DNA from: Bacteroidales bacterium
GTDB lineage: Bacteria; Bacteroidota; Bacteroidia; Bacteroidales; VadinHA17
Assembly (NCBI GenBank): GCA_021157415.1
Contig: JAGGWN010000007.1
Coordinates: 1 to 43,729, forward strand
DNA length: 43,729 bases
Reading direction: 5' to 3'
Shown: positions 7,603 through 26,377 of the stretch, in pieces
Layout: each line of letters begins with the position of its first letter
Position numbering within the stretch: the first letter of the stretch is position 1
Notes under the pieces: generated by a model
Seen by the model: the letters and a program-made list of their open reading frames with translations, nothing else
Database searches by the model: none
Told to the model about the DNA's origin: nothing
Position numbers and translations under genes: made by a program

Positions 7603-9018
7603 CTATTTGCGGCCTCTTTTCATCAGATATTCATGAATAACCCGGGCTGCCTTTTGACCGGATTCGATGGCTTTCACCACCAGTGAAGGACCTGTAGCAA
7701 CATCTCCCGCCGTAAAAACGGGTGCCTCCTTTTCAGCTCCACTGACATTTCCCCGTTCATCAAAGATTAACGGAAGATTTTTCAGCAGTTTGTCTTTTAC
7801 TGGATGGAGAAATCCCATGGCCAGGATGATCATGTCGGTTTCCAGGGTAAGTCTTTCTCCTGTTTCTGCGGGGATCATTCTGCCGTTTTCCCTTTTCCAT
7901 TTCAGTTTGCTCATCTCCACTTTATGGATGCGGCCATCCTTGCCGATGATCCGGTTGGTTCTGAGGCTCCACAGCCGCACACATCCTTCTTCGTGTGAGG
8001 AGGAGGTTCTCAGGGTATTGGGCCAGTAAGGCCATGGGTTGTCTTCCGTACGTTGCAGGGGTGGTTCGGGCAGGATTTCCACTTGTGTGACTGAGCGTGC
8101 TCTTTGCCGTATGGCCGTTCCTACACAGTCTGACCCGGTGTCACCACCACCGATCACGATTACATGTTTGCCTTTGGCTGAGATTCGTTTTCTCCCCGGG
8201 ATATTGGCGCCGGCATTGATCCTGTTCTGCTGGGAGAGGAAGTCCATGGCAAACCATATTCCCGGAAGGTCCCTGCCGGGAACTTCCAGATCACGCGGTT
8301 CTCTGGAGCCTACCGCCAGGCACAGGGCATCAAATGTTTCCAGGAGTTGACGGGCGGAGATATCCTTACCGGCATAAACGCCTGTCCTGAAGACCACCCC
8401 CTCTTTTTTATAGATATCAATGCGTCTGTCTATCACAGCCTTGGTCAGTTTGAAATCCGGGATGCCGAAGCGTAACAAACCTCCCGGATCTTCATCTTTT
8501 TCAAAAACGGTCACTTCGTGGCCTGCGCGGTTCAGGCGGCTGGCTACGGTTAGCCCTGCCGGTCCCGAGCCTATTACGGCCACTTTCCTGCCGGTTCGGC
8601 GTTTCGGGAGGTAAGGCTTGATCAGTCCCATTTTAAAAGCCATTTCAGCCAGGGCTACCTCATTCTCACGAATGGTTACCGGTTCTTCATGGATGGCCAG
8701 AACACAGGCTTTCTCACAAAGAGCGGGGCACACCCTTCCGGTAACCTCCGGCAGATCGTTGGTGAGATGCAGAAGATTGATGGCTTTTTCCCACTGTTCC
8801 CGGTACAGGGCGTCCTGCCATTCCGGAATGCGGCTGTGAGTACTGCAAGCCCAATGACAAAAAGGTACACCACAGGCCATGCATCGGGATGCCTGTAAGA
8901 TGCGGTCACGCGTATTCAATACCTGTTCCACTTCCGAAAAATCGGCTACCCGTTCGTTGACAGGACGGTATCCTGCTTCTTTTCTTGATATGTCCATAAA
9001 ACCTTTCGGATTTCCCAT
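7603..9018 (-). CDS. gltD: Glutamate synthase, NADPH-dependent small (beta) subunit
   Basis: GltD feeds electrons from NADPH to the GltB subunit, which makes two glutamates from glutamine and 2-oxoglutarate. The N-terminal part carries two Cys clusters (CMACGVPFCHWAC and CPALCEKAC) for [4Fe-4S] centres, followed by the FAD fold VIGSGPAGL and the NADPH fold VIGGGDTGSDC. I chose the ATG at 9018, preceded by GGAAA, over an upstream in-frame TTG at 9027; this gives 471 residues, normal for the family. It follows gltB by a short spacer and is the last gene of the ilv-leu-glt block. Confidence 0.95.
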   Translation of the reverse strand: MGNPKGFMDISRKEAGYRPVNERVADFSEVEQVLNTRDRILQASRCMACGVPFCHWACSTHSRIPEWQDALYREQWEKAINLLHLTNDLPEVTGRVCPALCEKACVLAIHEEPVTIRENEVALAEMAFKMGLIKPYLPKRRTGRKVAVIGSGPAGLTVASRLNRAGHEVTVFEKDEDPGGLLRFGIPDFKLTKAVIDRRIDIYKKEGVVFRTGVYAGKDISARQLLETFDALCLAVGSREPRDLEVPGRDLPGIWFAMDFLSQQNRINAGANIPGRKRISAKGKHVIVIGGGDTGSDCVGTAIRQRARSVTQVEILPEPPLQRTEDNPWPYWPNTLRTSSSHEEGCVRLWSLRTNRIIGKDGRIHKVEMSKLKWKRENGRMIPAETGERLTLETDMIILAMGFLHPVKDKLLKNLPLIFDERGNVSGAEKEAPVFTAGDVATGPSLVVKAIESGQKAARVIHEYLMKRGRK

Positions 9019-9044
9019 GATTTCCAAATTGAAAAATAAAACAA

Positions 9045-12000
9045 CTATTCTGCAAAATCAGGATCAAACTCTGCCCGTTTCAGCTTCATATTTATCTCCC
9101 TGAGTTTTTGTTCATTCAGGATCTTTTTATATTCAAGGGGTGTTACCTTGACAAACTTAGAGAAATAAGCTTCCCAGTTCGACAAGATATCTTCGGCCAG
9201 TTTGCTGCCAGTATTGTGCCAGTGTTCTGCGATCAGTTCCTGCAGTTCCGACACCTCGTCGTAGTCCTGCAGATGCGTCATCTCCACCAGTTCCTGGTTA
9301 CAGTAGTAGGCAAAGTCGCTCTCCCTGTCCAGGACATAGGCAATCCCGCCGCTCATACCGGCTGCAAAGTTTCTGCCGGTTTTTCCCAGCACTACCACAC
9401 GGCCACCGGTCATATACTCACAGCCATGGTCTCCGACCCCCTCCACCACAGCGTAAGCTCCGGAATTCCTGACTGCAAAACGTTCTCCGGCGACTCCGTT
9501 GACAAACAGATAACCGGCAGTAGCACCATAGAGGACGGTGTTTCCTATGATGATGTTTTCTTCCGGTTTATAAGTGATCCCTTTGGGAGGTGCCACAATG
9601 ACTTTCCCGCCGGAGAGGCCTTTTCCCAGATAGTCGTTGGCGTCACCTTCGATGCGGAAAGTGACACCGCTGCACAGAAAAGCCCCGAAACTCTGGCCTG
9701 CTGAACCGTAAAAAGTACATTCGATGGTATCCGTGGGTAAGCCTTTCTCGCCGTACAGCCGTATGATCTCTCCCGACAGGGTGGCGCCGGTAGCTCTGTC
9801 GGTGTTGTGAATCTCCCGGGAGATCCATACCCGTTCTTTCCGCTGCAATGCCCTTTCCGAAAGACGTATAAGTTCCTTATCCAGCCCGTTCTCCTGGATC
9901 TGTTGCAGACCGGGAACGAAATGTGTCGGGAAATTATCTGCATGCTCCGGGTAATACAACAGCCTGCTGAGGTCTACGGTACGGGCTTTTTCATGGTGGA
10001 TATCTTTCCTCTGTACCAACCGGTTGCTGCGGCCCACCATTTCTTCAAAGGTCCTGAATCCCAGCAGTGCCATATATTCTCTCACTTCCTGTGCCAGAAA
10101 ACGAAAATAGTTCTCAAGATGCTCAGGTTTACCCTCAAAGCGTTTACGCAGTTCCTTATTCTGTGTGGCTATGCCGGCAGGGCAGGTATTCATGTGGCAT
10201 TTGCGCATCATAACGCATCCCAGGGTGATCAGGGGCAAGGTGGCAAAGCCGAACTCTTCGGCGCCCAGCAGGGCTGCGATCACTACATCTCTGCCTGTTT
10301 TCAGTTGTCCGTCTGCCTGCAGGCGCACACGTCCCCGCAGGTTGTTTCTGACCAGGGTCTGATGGGTCTCGGCCAATCCTGTTTCCAGTGGGGCCCCGGT
10401 ATATTTGATGCTACTCACGGGGCTGGCGCCGGTACCCCCTTCCGTACCGCTGATAACGATCAGATCGGCGTGGGCCTTGGAAACCCCGGCAGCTACTGTG
10501 CCAACACCGTTCTCCGATACCAGCTTGACGCTGATGTATGCTCTTGGGTTGGTACTCTTCAGATCGTAAATGAGCTGTGCCAGGTCTTCGATGGAATAGA
10601 TGTCGTGATGGGGGGGAGGTGAGATGAGAGTGATCCCCGGGACGGAATGTCTTACCCGGGCAATGATTTTATCTACTTTATAACCGGGCAACTGACCTCC
10701 TTCGCCGGGCTTGGCCCCCTGGGCAATCTTGATCTGTATCTCATCGGCATTGATGAGGTAATGAGTGGTTACCCCAAAGCGTCCCGAAGCTACCTGTTTG
10801 ATTGCGCTGCGGCGGTTTTTCTGCGGTTCTTTGACGATAAAACGGGCAGGATCTTCCCCTCCTTCGCCCGTGTTGCTGCGCCCTCCGATACGGTTGACAG
10901 CGATGGCGATGGTCTCATGGGCTTCCTTGCTGATAGAACCGTATGACATGGCCCCGGTGACAAATCTTTTCATGATTGATTCAACTCCTTCCACTTCCTC
11001 CAGAGGGATAGGATTTTCTCTGAAATCAAGGAGTCCCCGGATGAACAAAGGGGTACGTGTATGTGCATCCGCGGCGGCTGTAAATTTTCTGAAGCGCTCG
11101 TAGTTGCCTGTTCTTACTGACCATTGCAGCAGGGCGATGGTGTCCGGGTTCCAGGCGTGTTTTTCTCCTTCCCATTGGTAACTGTAGATTCCTTTGTGAG
11201 GAAGATAGCCGATACCGTTGTCGGGGAAGAAAGTCTCCTGATGCGTTTTCATGATCTCCCGTGCCAGCTCGGCGATGCCGATGCCCCCGATCTGCGAGGG
11301 GGTGCCGGAGAAATATCTGTTGATCATCTCTTCGCTCAACCCGACGGCCTCAAAGATCTGTGCCCCGAAGTAACTCCTGAGTGTGGAAATGCCCATCTTA
11401 GACATGATCTTCATGATTCCTTTGTCAATGGCCTTGATATAGTTCTTGCGAGCCTGCGAATAAGGCATGTTAATCTCTCCCTGCCTGACCAGATCGTCCA
11501 GGACCGCAAAGGGAACATACGGGTTGATAATGCTTGCCCCAAAAGCAAGCAACTGGGCAAAATGGGTTACTTCACGGGCTTCCCCTGTTTCCACAATAAG
11601 ACCTACCTGCATCCTTTTTTTCTTACGGATCAGGTGGTGATGCACCGCCGAGACAGCCAGCAGGGAGGGTACAGGTGCCATATCTTCAGAGATATCCCGG
11701 TCGGAGAGAATGATGAAATTGGTTTTCCTGTTAACAGCTTCTTCTGCTTTCTTACATAAGGTATTAATGGCTTTCTTTAGCCCTTTGGCCCCCGTATTTA
11801 CCGGATAGACCATCGGCAGGGTGACATGGGTGAACATCTGGTGCCGGAGGTCTTTGATCTTGCCCAGATCGGTGTTGGTGATGATGGGCGACCTGAATTT
11901 GATCAGCCGGGCATGTTCCGGACTCTCCTCGAGGATGTTCTTCTGAATGGATCCGATGTAATTGGTCAACGACATGACCAGCCCTTCCCTGATAGGGTCG

Positions 12001-13556
12001 ATGGGAGGATTGGTGACCTGGGCGAACAACTGCCGGAAGTAATTGAATATTCTCTGTGGTTTATCCGAGAAAACAGCCATGGGGGCATCATTGCCCATAG
12101 AGTTGATCGGTTCTTTTCCCTGCTCGGCCATTGGTTTGATCAGCACTTCAATGTCTTCTTTGCTGTAACCGAAAGATTTCAGATATACCGGGAGCTTATC
12201 TCCCAGACCCGACGGTTTTCTGTTGATCACCTCGATCTGTTCCATCTCCAGCCGGTTTTCTTTCAACCAGTTCCCATAAGGATAACGACGGGCAAGGGTG
12301 GCTTTAACTTCATCATTCGGGATGATTATGCCCAGCCGGGTATCTACCAGCAACAGCTTGCCGGGTTTCAGACGTCCTTTTTCGCGGATCTCTTCCGCCG
12401 GAAATTCCTGTACGCCGGTTTCCGATCCCATAATGATCAGGTCGTTTTTGGTGATCAGATAGCGCGATGGACGCAGACCATTGCGGTCGAGGGTTCCTCC
12501 CACATATCGTCCGTCAGAGAACAGGATAGCCGCCGGACCGTCCCAGGGCTCCATGAACGTTGAGTGATATTCATAAAACGACTTCAGGCTTTTAGGTATG
12601 GGATTCTTATCGTTCCACGACTCCGGGATGAGCATACTCAGAGCGTGCGGAATGGTGCGACCTGTTCTGACCAAAAATTCTATGGCATTATCCAGCGAGG
12701 CTGAATCGCTTTTGCCCGGTTCAATGATCGGGAACACCTTTGGCAGATCATCCTGAAAAAGCTGTGACCGCATCAGCGACTCCCGGGCATGCATCCACAG
12801 ACGGTTGCCGCGGATGGTGTTGATCTCGCCATTGTGGGCGATGAACCGGAACGGCTGGGCCAGATCCCATGAGGGGAACGTGTTGGTGCTGAACCGCGAA
12901 TGAATCAGAGCAATGGCGCTTTTGTAATCAGGATGCTGCAGATCGGGATAATAATCACGCAGTTGATCCGGGGTGAAAAGCCCTTTGTAGATAATGGTAT
13001 GCGAGGAGAGACTGGGGATATAAAAAAGATCTTTGTCTTTAAGCTGTGACTGTCTTACCTTCGTTTCGATCTGTTTGCGGACAATATACAGTTTTCTCTC
13101 CAGCTCATCCTGTTCCTCTTCACTGCCGATGAAGACTTGCTCTATGCGGGGTTCCGATGCCAGGGCAATTTCTCCAAGGATGCTGTTGTTCACGGGTACT
13201 TCCCGGAAAGCAAGAAGTCTTAGCTTTTCCTGTGTGATGATTTCTTCCAGCCAGTTCTTGCATTGTTCCGTTTGTTTTTTATCTCTTGGAAGAAAGAGCA
13301 GTCCGGTACCATAACTGCCGGGAGCAGGCAGGCGGATCCCCGAACGAACGAAAAAAGCGTGGGGTACCTGTGTCAGGATACCGGCACCGTCGCCTGTTTT
13401 GTTGTCGGCACTCTCTGCCCCCCGGTGCGTCAGGTTAATCAGAATCTGCAGTCCCCTTTCCACAATGTCATGCGACTGGTTCCCGTGGATGTGAGCCACA
13501 AAGCCAATGCCGCAATTATCATGTTCGTTTTCCGGTCTGTACAACGACTTTTCCAT
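9045..13556 (-). CDS. gltB: Glutamate synthase large (alpha) subunit
   Basis: This is a 1503-residue GltB. The class II glutaminase domain begins after a short propeptide: the catalytic Cys is residue 15 in NCGIGF, so processing should remove about 14 residues. The central and FMN-binding synthase domains follow, with the [3Fe-4S] motif CVMMRKCHMNTCPAG. The C-terminal GXGXG beta-helix domain contains repeats such as GDHGCEYMTGG. The ATG at 13556 has an AAGGA site upstream and is preferred to a TTG at 13589. It lies 129 bases after leuB without an obvious promoter, so it may be transcribed by read-through from the ilv-leu operon and supply glutamate for branched-chain transamination. Confidence 0.95.
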   Translation of the reverse strand: MEKSLYRPENEHDNCGIGFVAHIHGNQSHDIVERGLQILINLTHRGAESADNKTGDGAGILTQVPHAFFVRSGIRLPAPGSYGTGLLFLPRDKKQTEQCKNWLEEIITQEKLRLLAFREVPVNNSILGEIALASEPRIEQVFIGSEEEQDELERKLYIVRKQIETKVRQSQLKDKDLFYIPSLSSHTIIYKGLFTPDQLRDYYPDLQHPDYKSAIALIHSRFSTNTFPSWDLAQPFRFIAHNGEINTIRGNRLWMHARESLMRSQLFQDDLPKVFPIIEPGKSDSASLDNAIEFLVRTGRTIPHALSMLIPESWNDKNPIPKSLKSFYEYHSTFMEPWDGPAAILFSDGRYVGGTLDRNGLRPSRYLITKNDLIIMGSETGVQEFPAEEIREKGRLKPGKLLLVDTRLGIIIPNDEVKATLARRYPYGNWLKENRLEMEQIEVINRKPSGLGDKLPVYLKSFGYSKEDIEVLIKPMAEQGKEPINSMGNDAPMAVFSDKPQRIFNYFRQLFAQVTNPPIDPIREGLVMSLTNYIGSIQKNILEESPEHARLIKFRSPIITNTDLGKIKDLRHQMFTHVTLPMVYPVNTGAKGLKKAINTLCKKAEEAVNRKTNFIILSDRDISEDMAPVPSLLAVSAVHHHLIRKKKRMQVGLIVETGEAREVTHFAQLLAFGASIINPYVPFAVLDDLVRQGEINMPYSQARKNYIKAIDKGIMKIMSKMGISTLRSYFGAQIFEAVGLSEEMINRYFSGTPSQIGGIGIAELAREIMKTHQETFFPDNGIGYLPHKGIYSYQWEGEKHAWNPDTIALLQWSVRTGNYERFRKFTAAADAHTRTPLFIRGLLDFRENPIPLEEVEGVESIMKRFVTGAMSYGSISKEAHETIAIAVNRIGGRSNTGEGGEDPARFIVKEPQKNRRSAIKQVASGRFGVTTHYLINADEIQIKIAQGAKPGEGGQLPGYKVDKIIARVRHSVPGITLISPPPHHDIYSIEDLAQLIYDLKSTNPRAYISVKLVSENGVGTVAAGVSKAHADLIVISGTEGGTGASPVSSIKYTGAPLETGLAETHQTLVRNNLRGRVRLQADGQLKTGRDVVIAALLGAEEFGFATLPLITLGCVMMRKCHMNTCPAGIATQNKELRKRFEGKPEHLENYFRFLAQEVREYMALLGFRTFEEMVGRSNRLVQRKDIHHEKARTVDLSRLLYYPEHADNFPTHFVPGLQQIQENGLDKELIRLSERALQRKERVWISREIHNTDRATGATLSGEIIRLYGEKGLPTDTIECTFYGSAGQSFGAFLCSGVTFRIEGDANDYLGKGLSGGKVIVAPPKGITYKPEENIIIGNTVLYGATAGYLFVNGVAGERFAVRNSGAYAVVEGVGDHGCEYMTGGRVVVLGKTGRNFAAGMSGGIAYVLDRESDFAYYCNQELVEMTHLQDYDEVSELQELIAEHWHNTGSKLAEDILSNWEAYFSKFVKVTPLEYKKILNEQKLREINMKLKRAEFDPDFAE

Positions 13557-13685
13557 GTTTTTCCTTAAATTTTTACATACAATTATCAATCTCAGATATC
13601 CCGGGCGGGATGTCTGTGCCGGAACAACCGACTGTTCTCTCTCTCCTGAAAACCTGCCGGTAACTAAAACGGATCGGTACGCTGG

Positions 13686-14753
13686 TTATTTTTCCCTGAT
13701 ATAATCAACGATCCATTGGCCGACTTCTGATGTATGCCTGGCATTTTTCGCCCCGATATCTTCCGTTACGAATCCTTCTTCGAGGGATTTCCCTACGGCT
13801 TCACGGATCATGGTTGCTTCTTCCTTCAGTGTGAGACCTGTCTCCAGCATCATGGCTGCCGACAGGATCATAGCCAGTGGATTGGCAATGTCTTTTCCGG
13901 CAGCCTGCGGATAAGAACCGTGCACCGGCTCGAACAGGGAAGTCAGACTGCCAACCGAGGCCGAAGGGAGCAAACCCATCGACCCGGTGATGACACTGGC
14001 TTCGTCGGTGAGGATATCCCCGAACATGTTTTCCGTAACCATCACATCAAACCGGCCCGGGTTCTGGATGATCTGCATGGCGGCATTGTCCACAAACAGA
14101 TAATCCACTTCTATGTCGCTGTTCTCTTTCGCCATTTCCTGGGCGATTTCCCTCCACAGGCGTGAGGTGACGAGTACGTTGGCTTTGTCCACCACCGTAA
14201 GTTTTTTTCTTCTGTTGCGGGCATATCCGAAGGCCACTTTCAGGATACGTACAATCTCCTCCCGGGAATAGATATTGGTTTCAAATGCTTTGTTCCCGTC
14301 TTCCGATCTACCCCGGGGTTCTCCGAAATAACTGCCTCCCGTAAGTTCACGGATCACTATAAAATCCACATTCTCTACCAGATGTTTGCGGAGTGGTGAC
14401 TTGTCAAGCAGGGAGGGGAAAGTGGCAACAGGCCTGATATTGGCAAACAGTCCCAGTTTCTTGCGCATGGTGAGTAAGCCCTGCTCAGGTCTGACCTTGG
14501 CTTTGGGATCATGGTCGTATTTGGGATCGCCGATGGCCCCGAACAAAACGGCATCGGCATCGCGGCACAACGCAAAAGTTGCCTCGGGAAAAGGCTCTCC
14601 CGTATGATCAATGGCAACCGCTCCCACATCTCCGTATTGAAAATCAAAATGATGTGAGTATTTCTCTTCTACGGCATGTAAAACGGCAACGGCCTGTTCC
14701 ATGATCTCCGGCCCGATACCATCCCCGGGCAAAGTGGCAATAGTGAATTTCAT
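13686..14753 (-). CDS. leuB: 3-isopropylmalate dehydrogenase
   Basis: LeuB oxidises and decarboxylates 3-isopropylmalate to 2-oxoisocaproate with NAD+. It may also act on 3-methylmalate (erythro-beta-methylmalate) to give 2-oxobutanoate if the citramalate route runs here. The 355-residue protein has the family start [10 protein letters not shown], the substrate-binding [14 protein letters not shown] loop, the Mg-binding region [19 protein letters not shown] and the nucleotide-binding [18 protein letters not shown] segment. It is 53 bases after the citramalate/isopropylmalate synthase paralogue. ilvE and ilvA are not in the window. Confidence 0.96.
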
Positions 14754-14806: not shown

Positions 14807-16342
14807 TTATGCTTTTTGCATTTGCCGGATATTTTCAACAATGTTCAGCATTTTCCCCGTAGCTTTGATGGCGGCCTCCGTCTGGTCGGCATCCAGCCCG
14901 TGAGTTTTAAACTCGTGATCCTGATATTTCCAGGTGATATTGGCCCTTACCAGCGCATCGGTACGGCCCCCGGGAGGAATGGTCACAATATAATCCGCCA
15001 GAACGGGATGTTCTATGTTCAGTTTGTCATAGATTTTCCACAGCGCTCGCATAAAAGCATCATACTGACCGTCTCCCGTGGCATTTTCCTTATATACATC
15101 CCCGTGGATCTCAACGGAAATGTTGGCGATCGGCTTTAAGCCGGAGGACAGGGTGAGCGCATAGTTAAGAATCTTAACCGGCTCATGCAGTTGGTTGTTA
15201 CTGTTCAATACATCTGCAATGATATAGGGAAGGTCTTCTTTGGTGATCTGTTCTTTTTTATCCCCCAGTTCGATCACCCTTTCCGTGATCTTGCGGGTAG
15301 ATTCAGGATCCAGATCTATGCCCATCTCTTCCAGGTTCTTCAGGATGTTGGCTTTGCCGGAGGTCTTGCCCAGGGCATACTGCCGTGAACGTCCGAAACG
15401 TTCGGGCAGCAGATCGTTGTAATACAGATTGTCTTTTGTGTCGCCGTCGGCATGTACCCCGCAGGTCTGTGTGAATACATTCTCCCCGACGATGGGTTGG
15501 TTGGAGGGAATGCGTATGCCGGAAAAGGTCTCAACAATTTTACTGATCCTGGTAAGTTGCGACTCCTCCAGATTATGCTCTGCCTGCAGATGATCGTTCA
15601 GCAGCACTGCCACACTGGCCAGCGGGACGTTCCCGGCTCTTTCTCCCAAACCGTTTACCGTGGTATGTACCCCGTTTACCCCTTCCCGGATGGCGGCCAG
15701 TACATTGCCTGTTGCCATATCATAATCGTTATGGGCGTGGAAATCCAGGTGTAACTTCGGATATTGCTCACGTACCTGACGGATAAACCGGGCAGTCTGG
15801 TATGGGTTGAGGATGCCCAGGGTGTCAGGCAGCATAAAACGCTCAATGGGTTCGTCTTGCAGCCCGTCCATCAGGAAAAAAACATAAGCAGGACTGTTGA
15901 TCATGCCGTTCGACCAGTCTTCGAGATACAGGTTTACCATCATCTTTTTGCTGCGGGCATAATGAATAGATCTTTTTATATCCCGGAGGTGTTCTTCCGG
16001 TTCTTTGTGCAACTGCTCCCTTACATGCCGTAATGATCCTTTGGTGAGCAGGTTGGCCACGCGTCCTCCTGCTTCAGCGATCCATTCAATGGAGGCTGTG
16101 CCGTCTATGAAAGCCAGGATCTCAATCTTGTCCAACTTTCCCTTCCGGGAAGCACAGGAGGTGATGCGACGTACCGCCTCAAATTCTCCGGTGGAAACAC
16201 GGGCCGAAGCTACCTCAATGCGGTCCACACCCACTTCGTCTAATAACATCTTGGCAATGGTTTCTTTTTCTACCGGACTGAAAGAGACCCCCATGGTCTG
16301 CTCTCCGTCGCGAAGGGTGGTGTCCATGATCTCGATAAACAT
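14807..16342 (-). CDS. Citramalate synthase or second 2-isopropylmalate synthase (LeuA2/CimA-like)
   Basis: This 511-residue protein is an HMGL-like acyl-transferring synthase with a C-terminal LeuA dimer (regulatory) domain. The metal and catalytic motif DTTLRDGEQ is at 7-15, HAHND at 202-206 and NGLGERAGN further on. It differs from the neighbouring LeuA in the substrate region (DGEQTMGVSFS against [11 protein letters not shown]). The cluster has LeuC, LeuD and LeuB for isomerisation and oxidation but no threonine deaminase. The likely role is therefore condensation of pyruvate and acetyl-CoA to citramalate for isoleucine. Annotation as 2-isopropylmalate synthase is the alternative. The C-terminal domain suggests feedback control, probably by isoleucine if it is CimA. 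Confidence 0.8.
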   Translation of the reverse strand: MFIEIMDTTLRDGEQTMGVSFSPVEKETIAKMLLDEVGVDRIEVASARVSTGEFEAVRRITSCASRKGKLDKIEILAFIDGTASIEWIAEAGGRVANLLTKGSLRHVREQLHKEPEEHLRDIKRSIHYARSKKMMVNLYLEDWSNGMINSPAYVFFLMDGLQDEPIERFMLPDTLGILNPYQTARFIRQVREQYPKLHLDFHAHNDYDMATGNVLAAIREGVNGVHTTVNGLGERAGNVPLASVAVLLNDHLQAEHNLEESQLTRISKIVETFSGIRIPSNQPIVGENVFTQTCGVHADGDTKDNLYYNDLLPERFGRSRQYALGKTSGKANILKNLEEMGIDLDPESTRKITERVIELGDKKEQITKEDLPYIIADVLNSNNQLHEPVKILNYALTLSSGLKPIANISVEIHGDVYKENATGDGQYDAFMRALWKIYDKLNIEHPVLADYIVTIPPGGRTDALVRANITWKYQDHEFKTHGLDADQTEAAIKATGKMLNIVENIRQMQKA

Positions 16343-16355
16343 GGCCTTTTCTTTT

Positions 16356-16952
16356 TTATTTGTGATGTGACTGTTCGTATGCTGTAATTTTATCTTTGTT
16401 GCTTAACAGATAATCGATATCGTCATATCCGTTCAGCATACATTCTTTTTTGTAAGCATTGATTTCAAACCCTTCATATTCTCCGGTGGTTACAACGGTG
16501 ATTTTCTGTTCCGGAAGATGAATTTCCAGGAGAGTGTCCGGATTTTTTACGGAGAGTTCAAACAGCCGCTGCAGGAACCCTTCGGAGACCTGCACGGGCA
16601 GCAATCCGTTGTTCAGGGCATTGTTCCGGAAGATGTCTGCAAAGAAGCTGGATACCACCACACGGAAACCGTAGTCATACAAGGCCCAGGCAGCATGTTC
16701 GCGGCTGGAACCGGAACCGAAGTTTTTACCTGTCACCAGTATCTTGCCCGTGTACATGTCTTTGTTCAGGACGAATTCCGGGTTGGGCGTTCCATCGGAA
16801 GTGTATCTCCAGTCGCGGAAGAGATTGTCTCCAAAGCCTTCGCGGGTAGTGGCTTTCAGAAAACGGGCCGGGATGATCTGGTCTGTGTCCACGTTGTCAA
16901 CAGGCAGCGGAACAAAAGGAGACCGGAGTATGGTGAATTTTTCTCTTGGCAT
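16356..16952 (-). CDS. leuD: 3-isopropylmalate dehydratase small subunit
   Basis: LeuD is the swivelling small subunit that pairs with LeuC to isomerise 2- to 3-isopropylmalate. The 198-residue protein has the substrate-recognition loop [13 protein letters not shown] near residue 20 and the aconitase-family motif [13 protein letters not shown]. Length is normal for a bacterial LeuD. It sits 27 bases after leuC and 13 bases before the LeuA2/CimA gene. LeuCD probably also converts citramalate if the paralogue is CimA. Confidence 0.95.
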
Positions 16953-16979: not shown

Positions 16980-18377
16980 TCAAAGAAATTCCCGGGGGTC
17001 GGTGATCTTTCCGGTAACGGCTGCCGCAGCAGCGGTCAACGGACTGGTCAGCATGGTGCGGGCTCCCGGACCCTGACGACCTTCAAAGTTACGGTTAGAG
17101 GTGGAGACACTATACTTACCTGCCGGGATCTTATCATCATTCATAGCCAGACAGGCCGAACATCCGGGTTGCCGCAGCTCAAAACCGGCTTCTTTCAGGA
17201 TCTTGTCCAGCCCTTCTTCCAGGGCTTGTTTTTCTACCTGCTTAGACCCCGGAACAATCCAGGCTACTACATTTTCTGCCTTTTTATGCCCCCGGATCAT
17301 ATGGACAAAAGCCCGCAGGTCTTCTATACGTCCATTGGTGCAACTGCCCAGAAAAACATAGTCCACAGGCTTGCCTATCATGGGCTCTCCGGCCCGAAAG
17401 CCCATATAATCCAAAGATTTATAGTATGAAACAGCGTCCGGATCGTTCTTGTTCACTACAGGGATGGTTCCCGTAACCGGGATGCCCATGCCCGGATTGG
17501 TTCCGTAGGTGATCATGGGTTCAATGTCGGTGGCATCGTAAGTAATCTCCCTGTCAAAGACAGCTCTTTCATCCGTTTTCAGCGACAACCACTGTTCAGC
17601 CATCTTGTCAAAATCTTCACCTTTGGGAGCAAACTCCCGTCCCCGTACATATTCGATAGTGGTTTCGTCGGGTGCGATCAGCCCGCCGCGGGCGCCCATC
17701 TCGATGCTCATATTACAGAGGGTCATGCGGCCTTCCATGCTCAGCGAGCGGATGGCGCTGCCGGCATATTCGATGAAGTAGCCCGTGCCTCCGCTGGCAG
17801 AGATTTTTGAGGTGATGTACAGGATCATGTCTTTGGCGGTAACTCCTTTTCCTAGTGTTCCTTCAACCGTGATCCTCATTTTTTTGGGTTTGGGTTGCAG
17901 GACACACTGGGTGGCCAAAACCATCTCCACTTCACTGGTGCCTATACCGAAAGCGATGCTCCCGAAAGCTCCGTGGGTGGAGGTGTGACTGTCTCCGCAT
18001 ACGATGGTCATGCCCGGTTGTGTCAGCCCCAGCTCGGGGCCTATCACATGGACTATGCCCTGCCACGGATGACCCAGACCGTATAAGGGAATGCTGTGAT
18101 GCCGGCAGTTTTCTTCCAGCTTCTGCACCTGCAGACGTGACAGCTCTTCCCGGATCGGGAGATGCTGGTCCCGGGTAGGTACATTGTGGTCGGCAGTGGC
18201 TACCGTCCTGTCGGGACGAAAAACTTTTACACCCCGTTGTTCAATGCCGGCGAAAGCCTGTGGACTGGTTACTTCGTGGATCAGATGCCGGTCAATATAC
18301 ACAACATCGGGTCCCCCTTCAATATGCTCAACTACATGATTGTCCCAGATTTTGTCAAATAATGTTTTTGGTTCCAA
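16980..18377 (-). CDS. leuC: 3-isopropylmalate dehydratase large subunit
   Basis: LeuC is the [4Fe-4S] catalytic subunit of isopropylmalate isomerase. The 465-residue protein has the family start [13 protein letters not shown], the [12 protein letters not shown] motif, and the cluster cysteines in GSCTNGR and CSACLAMN. The only in-frame start compatible with the family is a TTG at 18377; a TAA stop lies 5 codons upstream and no clear Shine-Dalgarno site precedes it. A weak start here could lower LeuC relative to LeuA, which ends 19 bases upstream. Confidence 0.95.
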
Positions 18378-18396: not shown

Positions 18397-19893
18397 TTAT
18401 ACAATCTTGCCTATAGCGTCCAGGAATGCTTCCACCGAAGCCGTGATGATATCGGTATTGGCCGAGAAACCGTAGTAGGTCTGTCCGCGGTTCTCTATCT
18501 GTACATGTACTTTTCCAAGGTCATCGCTGCCCTTGGTGATGGCCTGGATCAGGAACTCTTCGAGAGTGACTTTTCGTTTGATCAGTTGCTTGACCGCCGA
18601 AAAAGCCGCATCAATGGGTCCGTTTCCGGTGGCGGTGGAGGTGAAGGATTCCCCATTGATTCTGACACGTACCATCGCTGTGGGAAAGACGGATTTTCCG
18701 GAAAAAACCTGTAACCTCTCCAGCTTAATATTGCGGTCTTCTTTTTTGAAAGTACCCATCAATACCTCCAGGTCCTCATCCTTGATCTCTTTTTTCTTGT
18801 CTGCTAAATCCAGAAAACGTTGATAGACATCGTCCAATGCCTTTTTAGACAAGGTATATCCCAGCACTTCCAGTCTGTGTTTCAGAGCAGCATGGCCGCT
18901 GCGGGCCGTCAGGACGATGCTCGACTCTTTGATCCCTACATCTTTCGGGTTGATGATCTCATAATTCTCTCTTTTTTTCAAAACCCCATCCTGATGTATT
19001 CCTGACGAATGGGCAAAGGCATTGCGTCCGACAATAGCTTTGTTGGGCTGTACCGGCATGTTCATCAGCGAGGAAACCATTCTGCTGGTCTTATAGATCT
19101 TTTTCGTGTTGATACCCGTGGTGAAGTGCAGGTCTTTATACCGGCTTTTCAGGATCATGGCCACTTCTTCTAGAGAGGTGTTCCCCGCTCTTTCGCCAAT
19201 GCCGTTGATGGTCACTTCTACCTGCCGGGCGCCGTTGATGATACCGTTGATTGTGTTGGCCGTGGCCATACCCAGATCATTGTGACAATGTGTGGAGATA
19301 ACGGCTTTATCTATGTTTGGCACATTTTCCACCAGATAGCGTATCTTGGCCCCGAATTCTTCGGGCAGGGCATAGCCGGTAGTATCCGGGATGTTCACAA
19401 CGGTAGCCCCGGCCTTGATGACTGCTTCCACAACACGGGCCAGATACTCATTCTCGGTGCGGCCGGCATCCTCGGCATAGAATTCCACATCATCTACAAA
19501 CTTGCGGGCATATTTGACTGCCGCTATGGCACGCTCAATGATCTCTTCCGGATTAGAATTTAGTTTGTAATGTATGTGATGGTAAGAAGTGCCGATGCCT
19601 GTATGAATACGCGGATGCCTGGCATGTTGCAGAGCCTCGGCGGCCACCTCGATGTCTTTTTTAATGGCTCTGGTAAGCCCGCAGATTACCGGACGTGTCA
19701 CGGCTTTGGAGATATCCACCACCGATTTGAAATCGCCAGGGCTTGAAATGGGAAACCCGGCTTCAATGATATCTACCCCCAGTGCTTCCAGTGCCAGAGC
19801 CACTTCAATCTTTTCAACGGTGTTGAGCTGACACCCGGGGACCTGCTCTCCGTCACGGAGGGTAGTGTCAAATACATATACTCTTTCGTCCAT
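18397..19893 (-). CDS. leuA: 2-isopropylmalate synthase
   Basis: LeuA condenses 2-oxoisovalerate with acetyl-CoA, the committed step to leucine. The 498-residue protein shows the HMGL-like TIM barrel with [12 protein letters not shown] (9-20), [14 protein letters not shown] and [11 protein letters not shown], and a C-terminal LeuA dimer domain that normally binds leucine for feedback inhibition. It starts with ATG 7 bases after ilvC and is followed by leuC. Together with the LeuA2/CimA-like gene, this is one of two synthases in the cluster. Confidence 0.95.
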
Positions 19894-19900
19894 GATCTTA

Positions 19901-20947
19901 CTATTTGTTTTCTGGTCTCAGTTTGCGGACCTGTGCCCCTGTCGTCCACATTTCTGAGTTGTGGATTTCTTCCAGTTCTTTTGCCAGTTTTTCGCGATAG
20001 TCGGGTTTCCGGTTAGCTTCTATGGTGATGCGTGCTTCATTGCCGGAAGCTACGCTGTCGTACAACTCCTCAAACACCGGTTTGACAGCATCCCGGAAAC
20101 GGTTTTTCCAGTCCAGGGCTCCCCGTTGTGCGGTGGTGGAACAATTGGCATACATCCAATCCATGCCGTTTTCAGCTACCAAAGGCATAAGGCTCTGTGT
20201 CAGTTCTTCTACGGTTTCGTTGAAAGCCTCCGAAGGGGAATGCCCTCTGGACCTTAACAGGTTGTACTGGGCTTCCATGATGCCGGCAATGGCCCCCATC
20301 AGGACTCCGCGTTCTCCGGTGAGGTCACTGTACACTTCTCTTTTGAAATCGGTCTCAAAAAGATAACCGGAACCGATACCCACACCGATAGCCAGCACCC
20401 TGTCTTTGGCTCTGCCGGTAGCATCCTGGTATATAGCATAGCTGGAGTTGATGCCTTTGTTCTGCAGGAAGAGTCTGCGCAGAGAGGTACCTGAACCTTT
20501 CGGGGCTACGAGGATCACATCAATGTTATCAGGAGGGATGATTCCCGTCTGGTCGCTGAAGGTGATGCCGAAGCCGTGAGAGAAATACAGTGCTTTTCCT
20601 TCGGTAAGATGTTTCTTCATGACCGGCCAGGCTGCGATCTGTCCCGCATCCGACAACAGGTTCAGGAGGACGGTGCCTTTCTCACAGGCTTCTTCTATCT
20701 CAAACAGGTCTTTCCCTTCCACCCATCCGTCGTCCAGGGCTTTCTGCCAGGACCCCGATCCTTTGCGCTGTCCTACGATCACATGAAATCCGTTATCTTT
20801 CAGATTCAGTGCCTGTCCGGGACCCTGAACACCGTATCCTATCACTGCAAGCGTTTCGTCTTTCAGTACTTCTTTTGCCTTGTCAAGAGGGAATTCTTCT
20901 CTGGTAACAACATTTTCCAGAACGCCTCCGAAATTGATCTTTGCCAT
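19901..20947 (-). CDS. ilvC: Ketol-acid reductoisomerase
   Basis: IlvC converts acetolactate and acetohydroxybutyrate to dihydroxy acids with NADPH and Mg. The 348-residue protein has the Rossmann motif GYGVQGPGQ at 37-45. The following [10 protein letters not shown] loop contains the Arg and Ser residues expected to bind the NADPH 2'-phosphate. The C-terminal knotted helical domain carries the metal-binding acidic residues ([16 protein letters not shown]). It is separated from ilvN by 150 bases, the second-longest spacer in the block, but no promoter or terminator could be supported there. Confidence 0.95.
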
Positions 20948-21097: not shown

Positions 21098-21646
21098 TTA
21101 GTCGTTTGTGTAATTCGTTGCTTCTTCCAGTTCCTGCAGGTGGACGGCCAGCTCTTTCATCGGCTTGGTAATAGCCACTCTTCCAGAACGAACGAATTCC
21201 AACAAGCCAAATGGTTTTAGCTTTTCCAAAAGTTCCTGTGTGTCTTCCTTGTGACCTGTTTTTTCGATGGCCGTATATTCGGGAGTGACCTCCAGAATGC
21301 GGGCATTGTATCTGCGAACCAGATTTTCTATCTCGTTGCTTTCCAGTAGGGCAGAGGTGGGTACTTTATATAGTGCGATTTCCTGATAGATGATCTCGTC
21401 AGAATGATAATAAAAAGCTTTCATAACATCTACCAGTTTCTGGATTTGTGAAATGATCTTTCTGATCATGGTTTCGGTCGAGTTGACAACAATGGTGAAA
21501 GAGTGAACACCGGGAATGTGATATTCCGAGGTGGTCAGGCTTTCAATATTGATCTTGCGTCTGGTGAAAATAATGGTCAGACGGTTCAGCAAACCGATGT
21601 TGTTTTCGCTGTAAACTTTGATGGTGAATTCTTTAATTTTTTCCAT
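21098..21646 (-). CDS. ilvN: Acetolactate synthase small (regulatory) subunit
   Basis: This 182-residue regulatory subunit of acetohydroxyacid synthase has an N-terminal ACT domain (KVYSENNIGLLNRLTIIFTRR, the valine-binding region) and the ALS_ss C-terminal domain. It follows the large subunit by 21 bases. It should give valine feedback inhibition and full activity to IlvB. Length and order are typical of Bacteroidota ilvBN. Confidence 0.94.
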   Translation of the reverse strand: MEKIKEFTIKVYSENNIGLLNRLTIIFTRRKINIESLTTSEYHIPGVHSFTIVVNSTETMIRKIISQIQKLVDVMKAFYYHSDEIIYQEIALYKVPTSALLESNEIENLVRRYNARILEVTPEYTAIEKTGHKEDTQELLEKLKPFGLLEFVRSGRVAITKPMKELAVHLQELEEATNYTND

Positions 21647-21667: not shown

Positions 21668-23407
21668 CTATTCGGTTACCATGTGAGATACGGAGGCTCC
21701 GGCCGGGACCATCGGAAACACATTTTGTTCTTTCATCACTTTTACTTCAAGAAGGAAGGGCCCCTCAGTATCCAGCATCTCATCCACTGCCTTTTCCAGA
21801 TCTTCCCGTTTTTCGATATACCTGGAGGCAATGCCGTACCCCTCGCTGGCGATTTTGGTAAAAGCAGGGTTGGCTAGCTCGGTGAAAGAATATCTTTTAT
21901 CAAAAAACATATCCTGCCATTGTCTTACCATACCCAGGAAAGAATTGTTTAGCAGGATCATTTTTACAGGCAGTTTATGCTGTGCTATGGTGCCCAGTTC
22001 CTGGATGGTCATCTGAAACCCGCCGTCACCGGCAAAACCCAGTACCACGCGGTCGGGACGGGCCACTTTGGCACCCACCGCCGCCGGTAAGCCGAAACCC
22101 ATAGTCCCCAGTCCGCCCGAAGTGACAAAACTGCGGGCCTGCTTGAAACAGTAGTTTCTGGCCACTACCATCTGGTGTTGTCCCACGTCGGTGACCACAA
22201 TGGCCTGACCATCGGTCTTATCAGAGATCAGGTGAACGACCTCATCCATCTTGATGTCCAAACCTTTGGACTCACGGGCAGGCTTGATGACTTTTTCATA
22301 CTCTTTCTTATATTCTTTACGAAAAGATTCAACCCACTCCTTGTGATCATTTTCTTTGACCAAAGGGAGCAACCTGGACAGTGCGTCTTTGGCGTCTGCT
22401 ACAATGGCCACATCTGACGTGACGTTTTTGCCAATCTCTGAATGATCTATTTCGATGTGTATGATCTTGGCCTGGTTGGCATAATCGTCCAGCCGGCCGG
22501 TGATACGGTCGTCAAAACGCATGCCTATGGCAATCAGCAGGTCACATTCGTTGGTCTTAATATTGGGGGCCATATTGCCGTGCATACCCGGCATCCCTAC
22601 ATTCAGCGGATGATCAACCGGAAAGGAAGAGAGCCCAAGCAAGGTGGTGGTCACCGGAATGTCTGCTTTGGTGACCAGGTTCATCAATTCTTCCTCCGCT
22701 TTGGAAATCAGGATGCCCCGTCCTGCAATCAATAAAGGTTTTTGGGCTTTGTTGATCAGATGGGCCGCTTTTTCCACTTTATCCATCTGTACTTTGGGAT
22801 AGGGAAAATAACTACGTATCCTTCGGCATTTTTCGTAATGCCATTTTATTTTTCCGAATTGTGCATCTTTGGTAATGTCTATCATTACCGGACCCGGCCG
22901 GCCGGTGGAGGCGATATAAAAAGCTTTGGCCACGATTTCGGGGATTTCTTCGGCCGATGTGATCTGATAGTTCCATTTGGTTACCGGCATGGTAATGCCG
23001 ATAACATCGGTCTCCTGAAAGGCATCTGTGCCCAACAGATTGGAAGAAACCTGACCGGAGAAGGCTACCATGGGGACCGAATCGATCATGGCATTGGCCA
23101 GGCCGGTGACCAGGTTGGTGGCTCCGGGACCTGAGGTGACCAGAACCACACCGGTTTTTCCCAGTATCTTGGCATAGCTTTCTGCGGCATGGGCAGCCCC
23201 TTGCTCATGCCGTACCAGAACATGGTTGAGCTGATCCCGGTAATCAAACAGAGCATCATAAACAGGCATAATGGCTCCGCCGGGATACCCGAAAATCGTA
23301 TCTGCATTTTCTTTCAACAGGGAAAAGATAAGGGCTTCCGATCCTGTAATTACCGTGCCTTCCGCCGGAAGTTCTTTTCCGGCTGTTTTTTCTTCGTTTG
23401 TTTTCAT
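21668..23407 (-). CDS. ilvB: Acetolactate synthase large (catalytic) subunit
   Basis: This is a thiamine-diphosphate enzyme that makes acetolactate (valine and leucine branch) and acetohydroxybutyrate (isoleucine branch). The 579-residue protein has the catalytic Glu68 in VRHEQGAAHAAESYA and the TPP/Mg-binding motif GDGGFQMTIQELGT, with the paired NN at the end of that motif region (LLNNSFLGMVRQWQ). An N-terminal extension of about 18 residues precedes the usual TGSEALIFSLL start. The ATG at 23407 is 26 bases after the ilvD stop. Confidence 0.96.
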   Translation of the reverse strand: MKTNEEKTAGKELPAEGTVITGSEALIFSLLKENADTIFGYPGGAIMPVYDALFDYRDQLNHVLVRHEQGAAHAAESYAKILGKTGVVLVTSGPGATNLVTGLANAMIDSVPMVAFSGQVSSNLLGTDAFQETDVIGITMPVTKWNYQITSAEEIPEIVAKAFYIASTGRPGPVMIDITKDAQFGKIKWHYEKCRRIRSYFPYPKVQMDKVEKAAHLINKAQKPLLIAGRGILISKAEEELMNLVTKADIPVTTTLLGLSSFPVDHPLNVGMPGMHGNMAPNIKTNECDLLIAIGMRFDDRITGRLDDYANQAKIIHIEIDHSEIGKNVTSDVAIVADAKDALSRLLPLVKENDHKEWVESFRKEYKKEYEKVIKPARESKGLDIKMDEVVHLISDKTDGQAIVVTDVGQHQMVVARNYCFKQARSFVTSGGLGTMGFGLPAAVGAKVARPDRVVLGFAGDGGFQMTIQELGTIAQHKLPVKMILLNNSFLGMVRQWQDMFFDKRYSFTELANPAFTKIASEGYGIASRYIEKREDLEKAVDEMLDTEGPFLLEVKVMKEQNVFPMVPAGASVSHMVTE

Positions 23408-23433: not shown

Positions 23434-25266
23434 CTAATGGTTAATTTGCCTGATGGCTCCTTTGTCGGCCGAGGTGACCATGTGTGCATATGCCTGCAAT
23501 GACACCGGGATCATGCGGTTACGTGTGGAAGGGGTATAGGCCTTTTCCCCTCTCTTTTCTTCTGCCTCTCTGCGTGCTGTCAGTTCTTCTTCGGATAAGC
23601 GGACTTGGATGCTTCTTTCGGGGATATTGATGTCAATGATATCCCCGTCTTTTATCAGAGCGATCTCTCCGCCGGCAGCTGCTTCGGGAGAGACATGACC
23701 TATGGAGAGGCCGGCGGTGCCGCCCGAGAAACGTCCGTCGGTGATCAGAGCACATGACTTGTCCAGTTTCATGGACTTGATGTATGAAGTAGGATAAAGC
23801 ATCTCCTGCATGCCGGGGCCTCCCCTGGGCCCTTCGTAGCGGATGACCACCACATCTCCCGCCGTTAGCTCATGACCCAGAATGGCATCACAGGCTGCTT
23901 CCTGCGATTCGTAAACACGCGCCCTGCCACTGAAGGAATAAAGCGATTCATCTACCCCGGCGGTCTTGACGATGCATCCGTCACGGGCGATGTTCCCGAA
24001 CAGTACGGCCAGACCGCCTTCCTTGCTGTAAGCATGATCATAATCGCGTATGCAGCCTTTGCTGCGGTCCCTGTCCGGTTCGTCATAGTAGTTCTCCTGT
24101 GATCCCATTTCCAGATTCTGGAACATACCGGGTGCACTGGTGAATATTTTTTTGGCATAACCGGTCACTGTGGGACGCATAAGGTCAAAGTCGTTGAGAG
24201 CGTCCTCCAGTCTGGGATAATCAACTCTTTTTACCGAATGATCAATCAGTCCCAGACGGTCCAGTTCTCCCATAATAGACAGGATCCCTCCGGCTCTGTT
24301 GACATCCTGCACATGATAGTGCGAGCTGGGTGCTACCTTGCAAAGATTGGGAATGCTGCGGGAGAGGTCATCAATGTCTTTCATGGTGAAATCCACGTCT
24401 GCCTCATGGGCGACGGCCAGCAGATGCAGAACGGTATTGGTGGATCCCCCCATGGCTATGTCCAGTGACATGGCATTCAGGAAGGCCTCACGGGTGGCGA
24501 TGCTTCGGGGCAGGACAGAGGGGTCTCCCTCTTCATAATATTTATTGGTGTTCTCAATGATCAGATCTACGGCTTTGTCGAACAGGGCAATCCGGTTTTT
24601 ATGGGTGGCCACAATGGTCCCGTTTCCGGGGAGGGCGATCCCCAATGCTTCAGCCAGACAGTTCATGGAATTGGCGGTGAACATGCCCGAACAGGAACCA
24701 CAGGTGGGACAGGCATTGCGCTCTACCTCCAGCAAAGCCTGGTCACTGATTGCCGGATCGCCGGCCATGACCATGGCATCCACCAGGTCGTACATCTTAT
24801 CCCCTACCACACCAGCTTCCATAGGGCCCCCCGATACAAAGATCGCAGGGATATTAAGCCGCATAGCAGCCATCATCATCCCGGGAGTGATCTTGTCACA
24901 GTTGGAGATACATATCATGGCATCGGCCATGTGGGCATTGACAACATACTCCACACTGTCGGCAATCAGATCGCGTGACGGCAGGGAATACAACATGCCC
25001 TGGTGCCCCATGGCGATGCCGTCATCAATGGCGATGGTGTTAAATTCGGCAGCAAAATAACCCCGGGCTTCGATCTTTGCCTTTAATTCCTGCCCGATAT
25101 TATGCAGATGAACATGCCCCGGCACAAACTGGGAAAATGAGTTGACAATAGCAAAAACCGGACGGCCGAAATGAAATTCTTTCATTCCGTTCGCCCGCCA
25201 AAGACTGCGCGCACCTGCCATGACCCGGCCCTGTGTGGTTGTGTTACTGCGAAGTGGTATTTTCAT
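23434..25266 (-). CDS. ilvD: Dihydroxy-acid dehydratase
   Basis: IlvD dehydrates dihydroxyisovalerate and dihydroxymethylvalerate to the 2-oxo acids. The 610-residue protein has Cys123 in CDKITPG and the [15 protein letters not shown] segment (Cys186, 189, 192) that together bind the Fe-S cluster, and the C-terminal [13 protein letters not shown] motif. It is the first structural gene after the attenuator at 25308-25424. The ATG at 25266 is preceded by AAGGAAG about 20 bases upstream and an A/T-rich stretch. Confidence 0.96.
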
Positions 25267-25307
25267 TCTAATTTTTTTTTATTTTTAACTTCCTTACTTA
25301 CCCCTAT

Positions 25308-25340
25308 AAAAAAGAACCGTCCCCTGGGTGAGAACGGTTC
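25308..25340 (-). terminator. Attenuator terminator (segments 3:4) upstream of ilvD
   Basis: In minus-strand RNA, GAACCGTTCTC (25340-25330) pairs with GGGGACGGTTC (25324-25314) around an ACCCA loop, an 11-bp stem with two G-U pairs. Six U follow directly (25313-25308), then AUAG. It lies 28 bases after the leader-peptide stop codon and 41 bases before the ilvD ATG. Segment 3 (25338-25327) within its 5' arm can alternatively pair with segment 2, which would dissolve the terminator. Confidence 0.92.
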
Positions 25341-25393
25341 GGATATAATCTTTATACCATTCTCACCTCATCCCCTGCGCAGGATAAGAACGG
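25314..25393 (-). promoter_or_regulatory. Transcription attenuator with competing segments 1:2, 2:3, 3:4
   Basis: Segment 1, CCGTTCTTATCC (25393-25382), lies inside the leader peptide over its Val-Leu-Ile-Leu codons. Segment 2, GGTGAGAATGGT (25367-25356), begins at the base after the leader stop. Segment 3, ACCGTTCTCACC (25338-25327), is nearly a copy of segment 1. Segments 2 and 3 pair over 12 bp with one G-U. Segments 1 and 2 pair over 11 bp with one bulge. Segments 3 and 4 form the terminator. A ribosome stalled on the branched-chain codons would mask segment 1 and let 2:3 form (read-through). A ribosome that reaches the stop would mask segment 2 and let 3:4 form (termination). Pairings are seen directly; the mechanism follows the known his, leu, ilv and trp attenuators. 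Confidence 0.88.
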
Positions 25394-25424
25394 AAAGAAT
25401 GATATTGATAATCGAATGGATCAT
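25368..25424 (-). CDS. Branched-chain leader peptide of the ilv-leu operon, 18 aa
   Basis: The 18-codon frame ATG...TGA encodes MIHSIINIILSVLILRRG. Ten of 18 residues are Ile (6), Leu (3) or Val (1), and they are concentrated between residues 5 and 15. The stop codon abuts attenuator segment 2. The ATG lies about 20 bases after the predicted -7 box, so the 5' untranslated region is very short and has no Shine-Dalgarno site, as is usual in Bacteroidota. The codons are mixed (ATC, ATT, CTT, GTT, CTG). The composition of all three branched-chain amino acids fits control of an operon that makes all three. Confidence 0.88.
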   Translation of the reverse strand: MIHSIINIILSVLILRRG

Positions 25425-25444
25425 ATTTACTGTTAATGAGACAA

Positions 25445-25475
25445 CAAAAGTATACATCCTTTTTTCATGACCAAA
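25445..25475 (-). promoter_or_regulatory. Promoter of the ilv-leu(-glt) operon
   Basis: On the minus strand TTTG (25475-25472), a spacer of exactly 19 bases, and TACTTTTG (25452-25445) match the Bacteroidota consensus TTTG-N19-21-TAnnTTTG at every defined position. The start of transcription should be near 25440, about 16 bases before the leader-peptide ATG. A second, weaker candidate -7 box (TATGTTTG, 25508-25501) lies further upstream without a good -33 partner. Confidence 0.8.
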
Positions 25476-26364: not shown

Positions 26365-26377
26365 GTCGGTCAAAAGT

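Follow-up and report, generated by a model that had tools for sequence, protein, structure and literature searches.

The attenuators of the enterobacterial trp, his, leu, ilvGMEDA, ilvBN and pheA operons combine a leader peptide rich in the end product, the alternative RNA pairings termed 1:2, 2:3 and 3:4, and a terminator with a U-run. For the Bacteroidota, our searches of open-licence PMC papers yielded no description of an ilv or leu attenuator, of its covariation, of a residue code or of tandem forms. A comparative survey by Lopatovskaya et al. from 2010 is said possibly to list Bacteroidetes among the phyla with predicted attenuation, which would lower the novelty of the findings reported here. 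The phylum was not blank before, because leader-peptide hints are reported in passages of two papers. One (PMC9723704) states that leader-peptide attenuation is strongly hinted at upstream of amino-acid operons in Flavobacterium psychrophilum, and the other (PMC7366714) describes short ORFs reminiscent of leader peptides in the long 5' UTRs of Bacteroides thetaiotaomicron, an organism whose post-transcriptional control it calls sparsely known. The initial annotation of the DNA studied here had proposed that an ilv-leu attenuator of this kind may be undescribed in Bacteroidota; because leader-peptide attenuation had already been suggested for F. psychrophilum this was too strong. No Rfam family covers the element.

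The element lies on the minus strand of the window, by which we mean the whole 43,729-nt stretch of a Bacteroidales genome that was analysed, upstream of a long row of biosynthetic genes. The row begins with ilvD (23434..25266; NCBIfam TIGR00110/NF009103) and continues with ilvB (21668..23407; TIGR00118), ilvN (21098..21646; TIGR00119), ilvC (19901..20947; TIGR00465), leuA (18397..19893; TIGR00973), leuC (16980..18377; TIGR00170) and leuD (16356..16952; TIGR00171). There follow a citramalate-synthase-like (cimA-like) gene (14807..16342), which matches NF042433 with 631 bits, under the curated cut-off of 950, and leuB (13686..14753; TIGR00169). The last two genes are gltB, for the glutamate synthase large subunit (9045..13589; Pfam PF00310, PF01645, PF04898 and PF01493), and a gltD-like gene for the small subunit (7603..9027; Pfam Fer4_20 and Pyr_redox_2), whose name is inferred from its place after gltB. 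The order ilvDBNC-leuACD-cimA-like-leuB-gltBD lies on one strand throughout, with 7 to about 150 bases between neighbours. The locus had been called an ilv-leu(-glt) operon; the row does extend through gltB to the gltD-like gene, and the gene spacing suggests a single transcript from ilvD to its end. In one genome of the same genus (G003), ilvD is 95% identical to that of the window.

In the direction of transcription the element consists of a promoter, a leader ORF, segments 1 to 4 and six U, followed by ilvD. The annotated promoter, TTTG-N19-TACTTTTG, is present, with TTTG as the -33 element (25472..25475) and TACTTTTG as the -7 element (25445..25452), 19 nt apart. The latter is of the TAnnTTTG class, the consensus being taken from passages of PMC7366714, and lies 20 bases from the leader ORF. 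With TAnnTTTG at -12 to -5 relative to the start, as given in part of PMC9723704, transcription is predicted to begin at 25440, which would leave the leader ORF a 5' UTR of 16 nt. The ORF (25368..25424) has 18 codons and encodes MIHSIINIILSVLILRRG, in which we counted the ten Ile, Leu and Val codons that had been claimed (six Ile, three Leu and one Val), and it ends in a UGA stop at 25370-25368. A second in-frame ATG, 33 nt further upstream (25457), precedes the predicted transcription start.

Segment 1 (25395..25405), assigned from the minimum-energy fold and a synonymous-codon test, lies over the Ile/Leu control codons. In that fold 25405-25395 pairs with 25364-25354 in 11 consecutive pairs, or in 13 pairs with one mismatch if extended; the eleven annotated pairs of 1:2 are thus there, and no bulge is needed to reach them. 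Segment 2 (25354..25367; fold and alignment) is at the same time the 5' arm of the antiterminator. Its stretch GGTGAGAATGGT (25367-25356) begins on the base directly after the UGA stop, as had been noted, and across 17 bases pairs with ACCGTTCTCACC (25338-25327) in 12 pairs, one of them G-U. Segment 3 (25327..25340) is common to this antiterminator 2:3 and to the terminator 3:4, of which segment 4 (25314..25324) is the 3' arm, both being placed by fold and covariation. In 3:4, 25340-25330 pairs with 25324-25314 in 11 pairs including two G-U, followed by the six U at 25308..25313, so that 2:3 and 3:4 agree with their earlier description. The leader stop is 101 nt from ilvD, with the terminator in between. 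Folding of 25305-25430 yields -40.4 kcal/mol (z = -3.63), and none of 200 shuffles was equal or better.

There is little doubt in our minds that the element is a ribosome-mediated (leader-peptide) transcription attenuator before the ilv-leu-glt row. RNA polymerase would start about 16 nt before the mini-ORF, in whose later part Ile, Leu and Val codons predominate, and the leader would be translated. When charged branched-chain tRNA is short, the ribosome would stall on the control codons and leave segment 2 free; 2:3 would then form before segment 4 is made, with read-through into ilvDBNC-leuACD-cimA-like-leuB (-gltBD). When charged tRNA is plentiful, the ribosome would reach the UGA and cover the first bases of segment 2, 3:4 would form, and transcription in the cell would stop near 25308. 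If the leader is not translated, 1:2 may shield segment 2. The initial annotation had read the element in the same way, and the relatives bear this out: 2:3 and 3:4 covary, the Ile/Leu/Val-rich mini-ORF and the promoter are conserved, and the geometry of control codons, stop and segment 2 is fixed.

The relatives of ilvD came from 40 related genomes, 28 of which had a match, and from 80 loci of named genomes. A strict detector searched up to 500 nt of upstream DNA for three features together: an intrinsic terminator; a competing pairing, 7 pairs or longer, in which the 5' arm of the terminator takes part; and a mini-ORF that starts with ATG, contains six or more Ile, Leu or Val residues and ends near segment 2. 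It passed 54 of 82 Bacteroidota ilvD loci, including that of the window, and 3 of 410 dinucleotide-shuffled upstream regions. An earlier count with the detector was 56 of 84 loci; left out before the 82-locus count were L029 (no N-terminus), L032 (the same stretch as L003) and L031 (a near-duplicate fragment), and removal of L106 as a false pick after it leaves 53 leaders. The conserved branched-chain-rich mini-ORF sought upstream of ilvD in related Bacteroidales was found in these. None of 25 ilvD loci of other phyla passed despite similar ilvD sequences, four of the 25 having less than 250 nt of upstream DNA. Carriers by name include Bacteroides graminisolvens (L062), Phocaeicola faecalis (L080) and Alistipes (L082). 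Odoribacter laneus (L083) failed the strict ORF rule and has a terminator, 2:3 and an ORF rich in Ile, Leu and Val. The 28 loci that fail include other near misses, with a non-ATG start, a different terminator shape or cut-off DNA. At the Prevotella-type loci L102, L104 and L105 no such leader was seen by eye, which suggests loss or another form of control there. Two loci (L024 and L075) have a variant core, AATCCTACAGGTATATATTGATGCGCTTGCCTGC..., instead of the GAGAAnGG type, and keep the mini-ORF and terminator.

The -33/-7 promoter, written as TTTG-N17..22-TAnnTTTG, is found in 39 of the 53 leaders at a distance of no more than 110 nt from the ATG that the detector chose; of 1060 shuffled regions, 5 had any such site. 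Its distance to the ATG is 11-37 nt in 38 leaders and 76 nt in one. At the window locus (L002) and some others the detector took the longer in-frame start, which alters the ORF length, and because of this choice the promoter count is conservative.

For the pairings, 46 leaders of 64 candidates were aligned with MAFFT (alignment A1), the 18 with a more divergent core being excluded by eye, and A1 was scored against the window's own pairings, with column shuffles that keep the relatedness among rows. In 2:3, 89.4% of cells are paired, against 46-53% in slid controls, and 36 cells have both sides changed; the covariation is 0.236 against 0.139 in shuffled alignments, with none of 500 as high. The corresponding values for 3:4 are 95.8% of cells against 39-65%, 46 cells with both sides changed, and a covariation of 0.385 against 0.226, again with 0 of 500 as high. 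An alignment-free test on 71 loci that had not been chosen by 2:3 ranked each locus's own partner against those of all 71; it came in the top 4 at 22 loci, where about 4 were expected, and at 20 when counted from the segment 3 side. The column common to 2:3 and 3:4 (88-156-179) underwent at least 16 state changes on an ilvD protein tree built by a quick method, and its fully paired states TGC, TAT and ATA occur in different parts of that tree. It is the most variable of the shared columns, and its 2:3 pair is missing in 11 of 46 rows.

Pairing 1:2 is different. It has 69.2% of cells paired in A1 against 43-59% when slid, and a covariation of 0.148 against 0.133 shuffled, with 22 of 500 shuffles as high (345 of 500 for pairs with both sides changed). 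Because this covariation barely exceeds the shuffles, 1:2 is not independently supported by the alignment. Compensatory changes in all three pairings had been suggested as a check, and they were found for 2:3 and 3:4; for 1:2 the signal is weak beyond near relatives. The synonymous-codon test, which asks whether the codons used let the leader pair with segment 2 better than synonymous variants would, is moderately positive: the mean z for 1:2 is -1.02 over the 53 leaders, 11 of which fall in the best 5%, and in the window 4 of 300 variants were as good. On these comparisons pairing 1:2 is the weakest part of the element, likely to be real in the genus of the window and uncertain elsewhere.

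A GGTATGTA-like stretch recurs just after segment 2 in A1, and the window has GGTATAAA at 25358-25351. The motif YRTG occurs within 9 nt after segment 2 in 13 of 46 rows, against a shuffled mean of 5.1 and a highest shuffled value of 12, a modest enrichment. The pause of the trp leader would sit at the place of this stretch.

The 53 leaders also agree in geometry. The share of Ile, Leu and Val is 0.06 at the last codon before the stop, 0.11 at the second last and 0.49-0.92 at codons -4 to -14; such control codons concentrate 4-15 codons before the stop, and their share drops further upstream. Segment 2 begins at most 5 nt from the stop in 45 of the 53. We folded the part of each RNA left free by the ribosome, which was assumed to cover 14 nt counted from the A-site codon. 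With the ribosome stalled on the last six Ile, Leu or Val codons, 2:3 forms in all 53 fold models. With the ribosome at the stop, 51 of the 53 models have 2:3 blocked, and all 53 form 3:4. With no ribosome, the RNA up to segment 3 favours 2:3 in 35 of 53 models, including that of the window. The leaders and ilvD itself differ strongly in the Ile, Leu and Val codons they favour, GTC being at 0.44 in the leaders against 0.17, CTA at 0.155 against 0.03 and ATT at 0.67 against 0.42. This preference may reflect sensitive isoacceptors or limits set by the pairing.

Related elements were sought before other genes with R1, a covariance model of A1 whose structure is 3:4 only. We searched 295 genomes of the order and 296 of the phylum with it, and at E <= 0.01 it matched 167 and 140 of them, respectively; these counts are rough, because weak matches inflate them and strict filters lose some. 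Weak or partial matches in the window's own genome (L179, L180 and L182) were rejected as plain terminators or AT-rich stretches that have no matching leader. A search of 6 genomes for the exact core pattern recovered the site of the window and, in G024, two others that were unconvincing. A core-only model (R2) was set aside: of 119 class genomes it matched 3 at E <= 1e-4, the window's own genome included.

The downstream gene was examined for 127 matched stretches, some of them overlapping, in two sets. The first, of 67, consists of 47 loci from the two R1 searches and 20 hand-chosen stretches; the second, of 60, was picked by hand among the matches listed, with second matches per genome favoured. 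The shares of operon types in them are no census, because R1 was built from branched-chain leaders and favours them. The set of 67 led mostly to ilvD and leuA, and also to two glutamate synthase genes (one checked) and one metY-like gene; its genomes outside the order contributed ilvE (one checked, above cut-off) and ilvN-like genes (under cut-off). The set of 60 gave 25 leuA, 22 ilvD, 3 gltB, 2 ilvB and 1 metY, with 7 unplaced by BLAST. NCBIfam models identified two of these seven as hisG and one as cysE-like (147 bits, cut-off 211), and gave nothing for the remaining four (L218, L243, L244 and L245), which were set aside as having no placed gene or matching leader.

A leader picker returned 89 distinct leaders from the 127 stretches, the rest being repeats or having no ORF of the required geometry. 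Over the last 16 residues, leuA leaders average 0.19 Val (n=21) and ilvD leaders 3.67 (n=48; p = 8e-9), a comparison in which two visibly wrong picks among the ilvD leaders (L124 and L132) were retained. Val is absent from these residues in 18 of the 21 leuA leaders, and Ile and Leu are higher there than before ilvD. The Ile share is 0.42 in ilvE leaders and 0.59 in ilvN-like leaders. The two hisG genes (L214 and L217) are preceded by the His-rich leaders MTFLTLHLHHSHSGPQAS and MNNQLHHRHFNTGYQAR. No metY or cysE-like leader passed the picker, and those peptides were read directly from the stretches. The leaders of metY, which encodes O-acetylhomoserine sulfhydrylase, are rich in Met and Cys (MCMMMCCCC and MCMMMCCAC in L154 and L238), and a leader with CICCCC precedes the cysE-like (serine O-acetyltransferase-like) gene (L235). 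The five gltB leaders (L172, L174, L187, L208 and L213) are partly rich in Lys or His and have no runs of Glu or Gln, so that they show no simple match to their operon. The matches between leader residues and operon would be hard to explain unless the leader codons are read.

At the two hisG loci a core-like stretch downstream of segment 2 is kept (..ATGGTATGTGTAA in L214), and the antiterminator uses other bases.

Some of these elements occur in series. Two or three R1 matches in a row were present in eleven genomes among the matches listed, and we read nine of the tandem stretches (L159-L167, from G569, G380, G237, G129, G162, G339, G536, G278 and G169). They precede ilvE, an ilvN-like gene, ilvB or ilvD, and by reading each unit has its own terminator. 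A mini-ORF rich in Ile, Leu and Val is found in both units of eight tandem pairs, and in L159 there are three units, of which the first begins its mini-ORF with a codon other than ATG. With two gates in succession, basal expression would be expected to fall and the response to become steeper. The window has one attenuator unit only.

The same terminator/antiterminator logic would serve a metabolite riboswitch or a protein-controlled terminator or antiterminator, with the reading frame incidental. We consider this very improbable, because the matching of residues to operons and the spacing from stop to segment 2 require translation. Moreover, by eye nothing in A1 resembles an aptamer besides the mini-ORF and the covarying arms. 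Rfam, which includes a T-box family, had been named as the place to look for existing models; at gathering thresholds it gave no family match in the window, and no family reached threshold on the attenuators of 20 related loci, T-box included in both cases. At permissive thresholds the attenuator region drew four weak matches, each well short of its gathering score, the best being Phe_leader RF01859 (21.9 bits against a threshold of 55; E 0.16). A borderline SAM-II match (44.3 bits against a threshold of 44) occurs in one related locus, on its minus strand (L146:1282-1391), at a distance of about 110 nt from the attenuator match and on the opposite strand from it.

Less probable still is that the hairpin is the ordinary intrinsic terminator of the upstream gene, accompanied by a chance mini-ORF, with the ilv row transcribed by read-through or from another promoter. 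A GATase-type gene on the same strand (25633-26373) does end about 290 nt before the terminator, and the weak R1 matches elsewhere in the genome are such terminators or AT-rich stretches. Against this, a plain terminator has no need of 2:3, yet 2:3 covaries, and the composition of the leader tracks the operon downstream. The leader also stays with ilvD while the longest upstream ORF varies: by this crude measure 42 of the 46 aligned loci have such an ORF, in 32 clusters, and in 14 of the 42 it is on the other strand. The promoter furthermore intervenes in 39 of the 53 leaders. Just as improbable is that the leader acts mainly on ilvD translation through the reinitiation that passages of PMC4833913 propose for short leader genes, which in Bacteroidetes peak 11-14 bp before structural genes, or that it encodes a functional small protein, since 101 nt, with a terminator among them, separate its stop from ilvD, and the peptide sequence drifts between loci while its Ile, Leu and Val content stays.

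With the leader-peptide attenuator as the preferred reading, we think it somewhat probable that the Bacteroidota possess a phylum-wide family of attenuator RNAs outside Rfam, in which a shared core is combined with interchangeable leader peptides that set the amino acid sensed, and in which two or three units can be stacked in series as successive gates. The shared switch core is about GAGAAnGG ... CCnTTCTC ... GAGAAnGG, and before hisG it is kept only in part. On this interpretation the sensed residues would be Ile, Leu and Val before ilvD, Ile and Leu nearly without Val before leuA, mostly Ile before ilvE and ilvN-like genes, His before hisG, Met and Cys before metY, and Cys before cysE-like genes.

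If such a family exists, it would imply close coupling of transcription and translation in the Bacteroidota. To our knowledge this phylum does not use classical Shine-Dalgarno sites, and the attenuator would offer a handle on the coupling of ribosome and RNA polymerase where these are lacking. From a conserved attenuator with so legible a peptide code one can readily predict which amino acids each operon senses, and the element is also a candidate for a new RNA family. Leaders of leuA with almost no Val, and units in tandem, open codon-specific sensing and the sharpening of the signal to direct tests with reporters. The principle of attenuation itself is classical, and the interest for specialists lies in the phylum-wide, modular and tandem picture.

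Mechanistically, the sequence tests run here place the element in the classical ilv/leu/trp attenuator class, and it matches no Rfam family. It shares with the enterobacterial type, as commonly described, a leader peptide rich in end-product residues, the 2:3 and 3:4 alternatives (with 1:2 clear in the window and near relatives), the U-run terminator and a multivalent Ile/Leu/Val leader before ilv genes. It differs in its -33/-7 promoter, in a weakly conserved 1:2, in reaching no Rfam family threshold, and in that one model also finds leuA, ilvE, ilvN-like, hisG, metY, gltB and cysE-like leaders.

Among the other described systems, the Corynebacterium ilvB-II and the ilvB-OMG and Leptospira ilvB motifs have, in the descriptions given in passages of PMC10272879, a branched-chain-rich uORF before ilvB, and ilvB-II has a terminator stem. 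They are set apart by description, since the first gene here is ilvD and the lineage is another. The Veillonella ilvD (WRC-18-2) motif is likewise a structured region before ilvD, in some cases with a terminator; according to parts of PMC8632094 it is exclusive to Veillonella, and its authors regard it as a weak riboswitch candidate. The F. psychrophilum cases (PMC9723704) are from the same phylum, and there, too, operons for amino-acid biosynthesis are preceded by structured 5' regions that show features of a leader peptide. Passages of that account give no operon names, pairing or motif, and its main text has no word starting with ilv. The leucine-rich attenuator peptide of Staphylococcus aureus (PMC5794164) is a leader peptide over branched-chain synthesis genes in a different phylum. 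Finally, the tandem forms recall the Salmonella mgtCBR leader, which according to parts of PMC3641672 contains two short ORFs and attenuators in series; mgtCBR is not an amino-acid operon, whereas the tandem copies described here repeat one type of switch.
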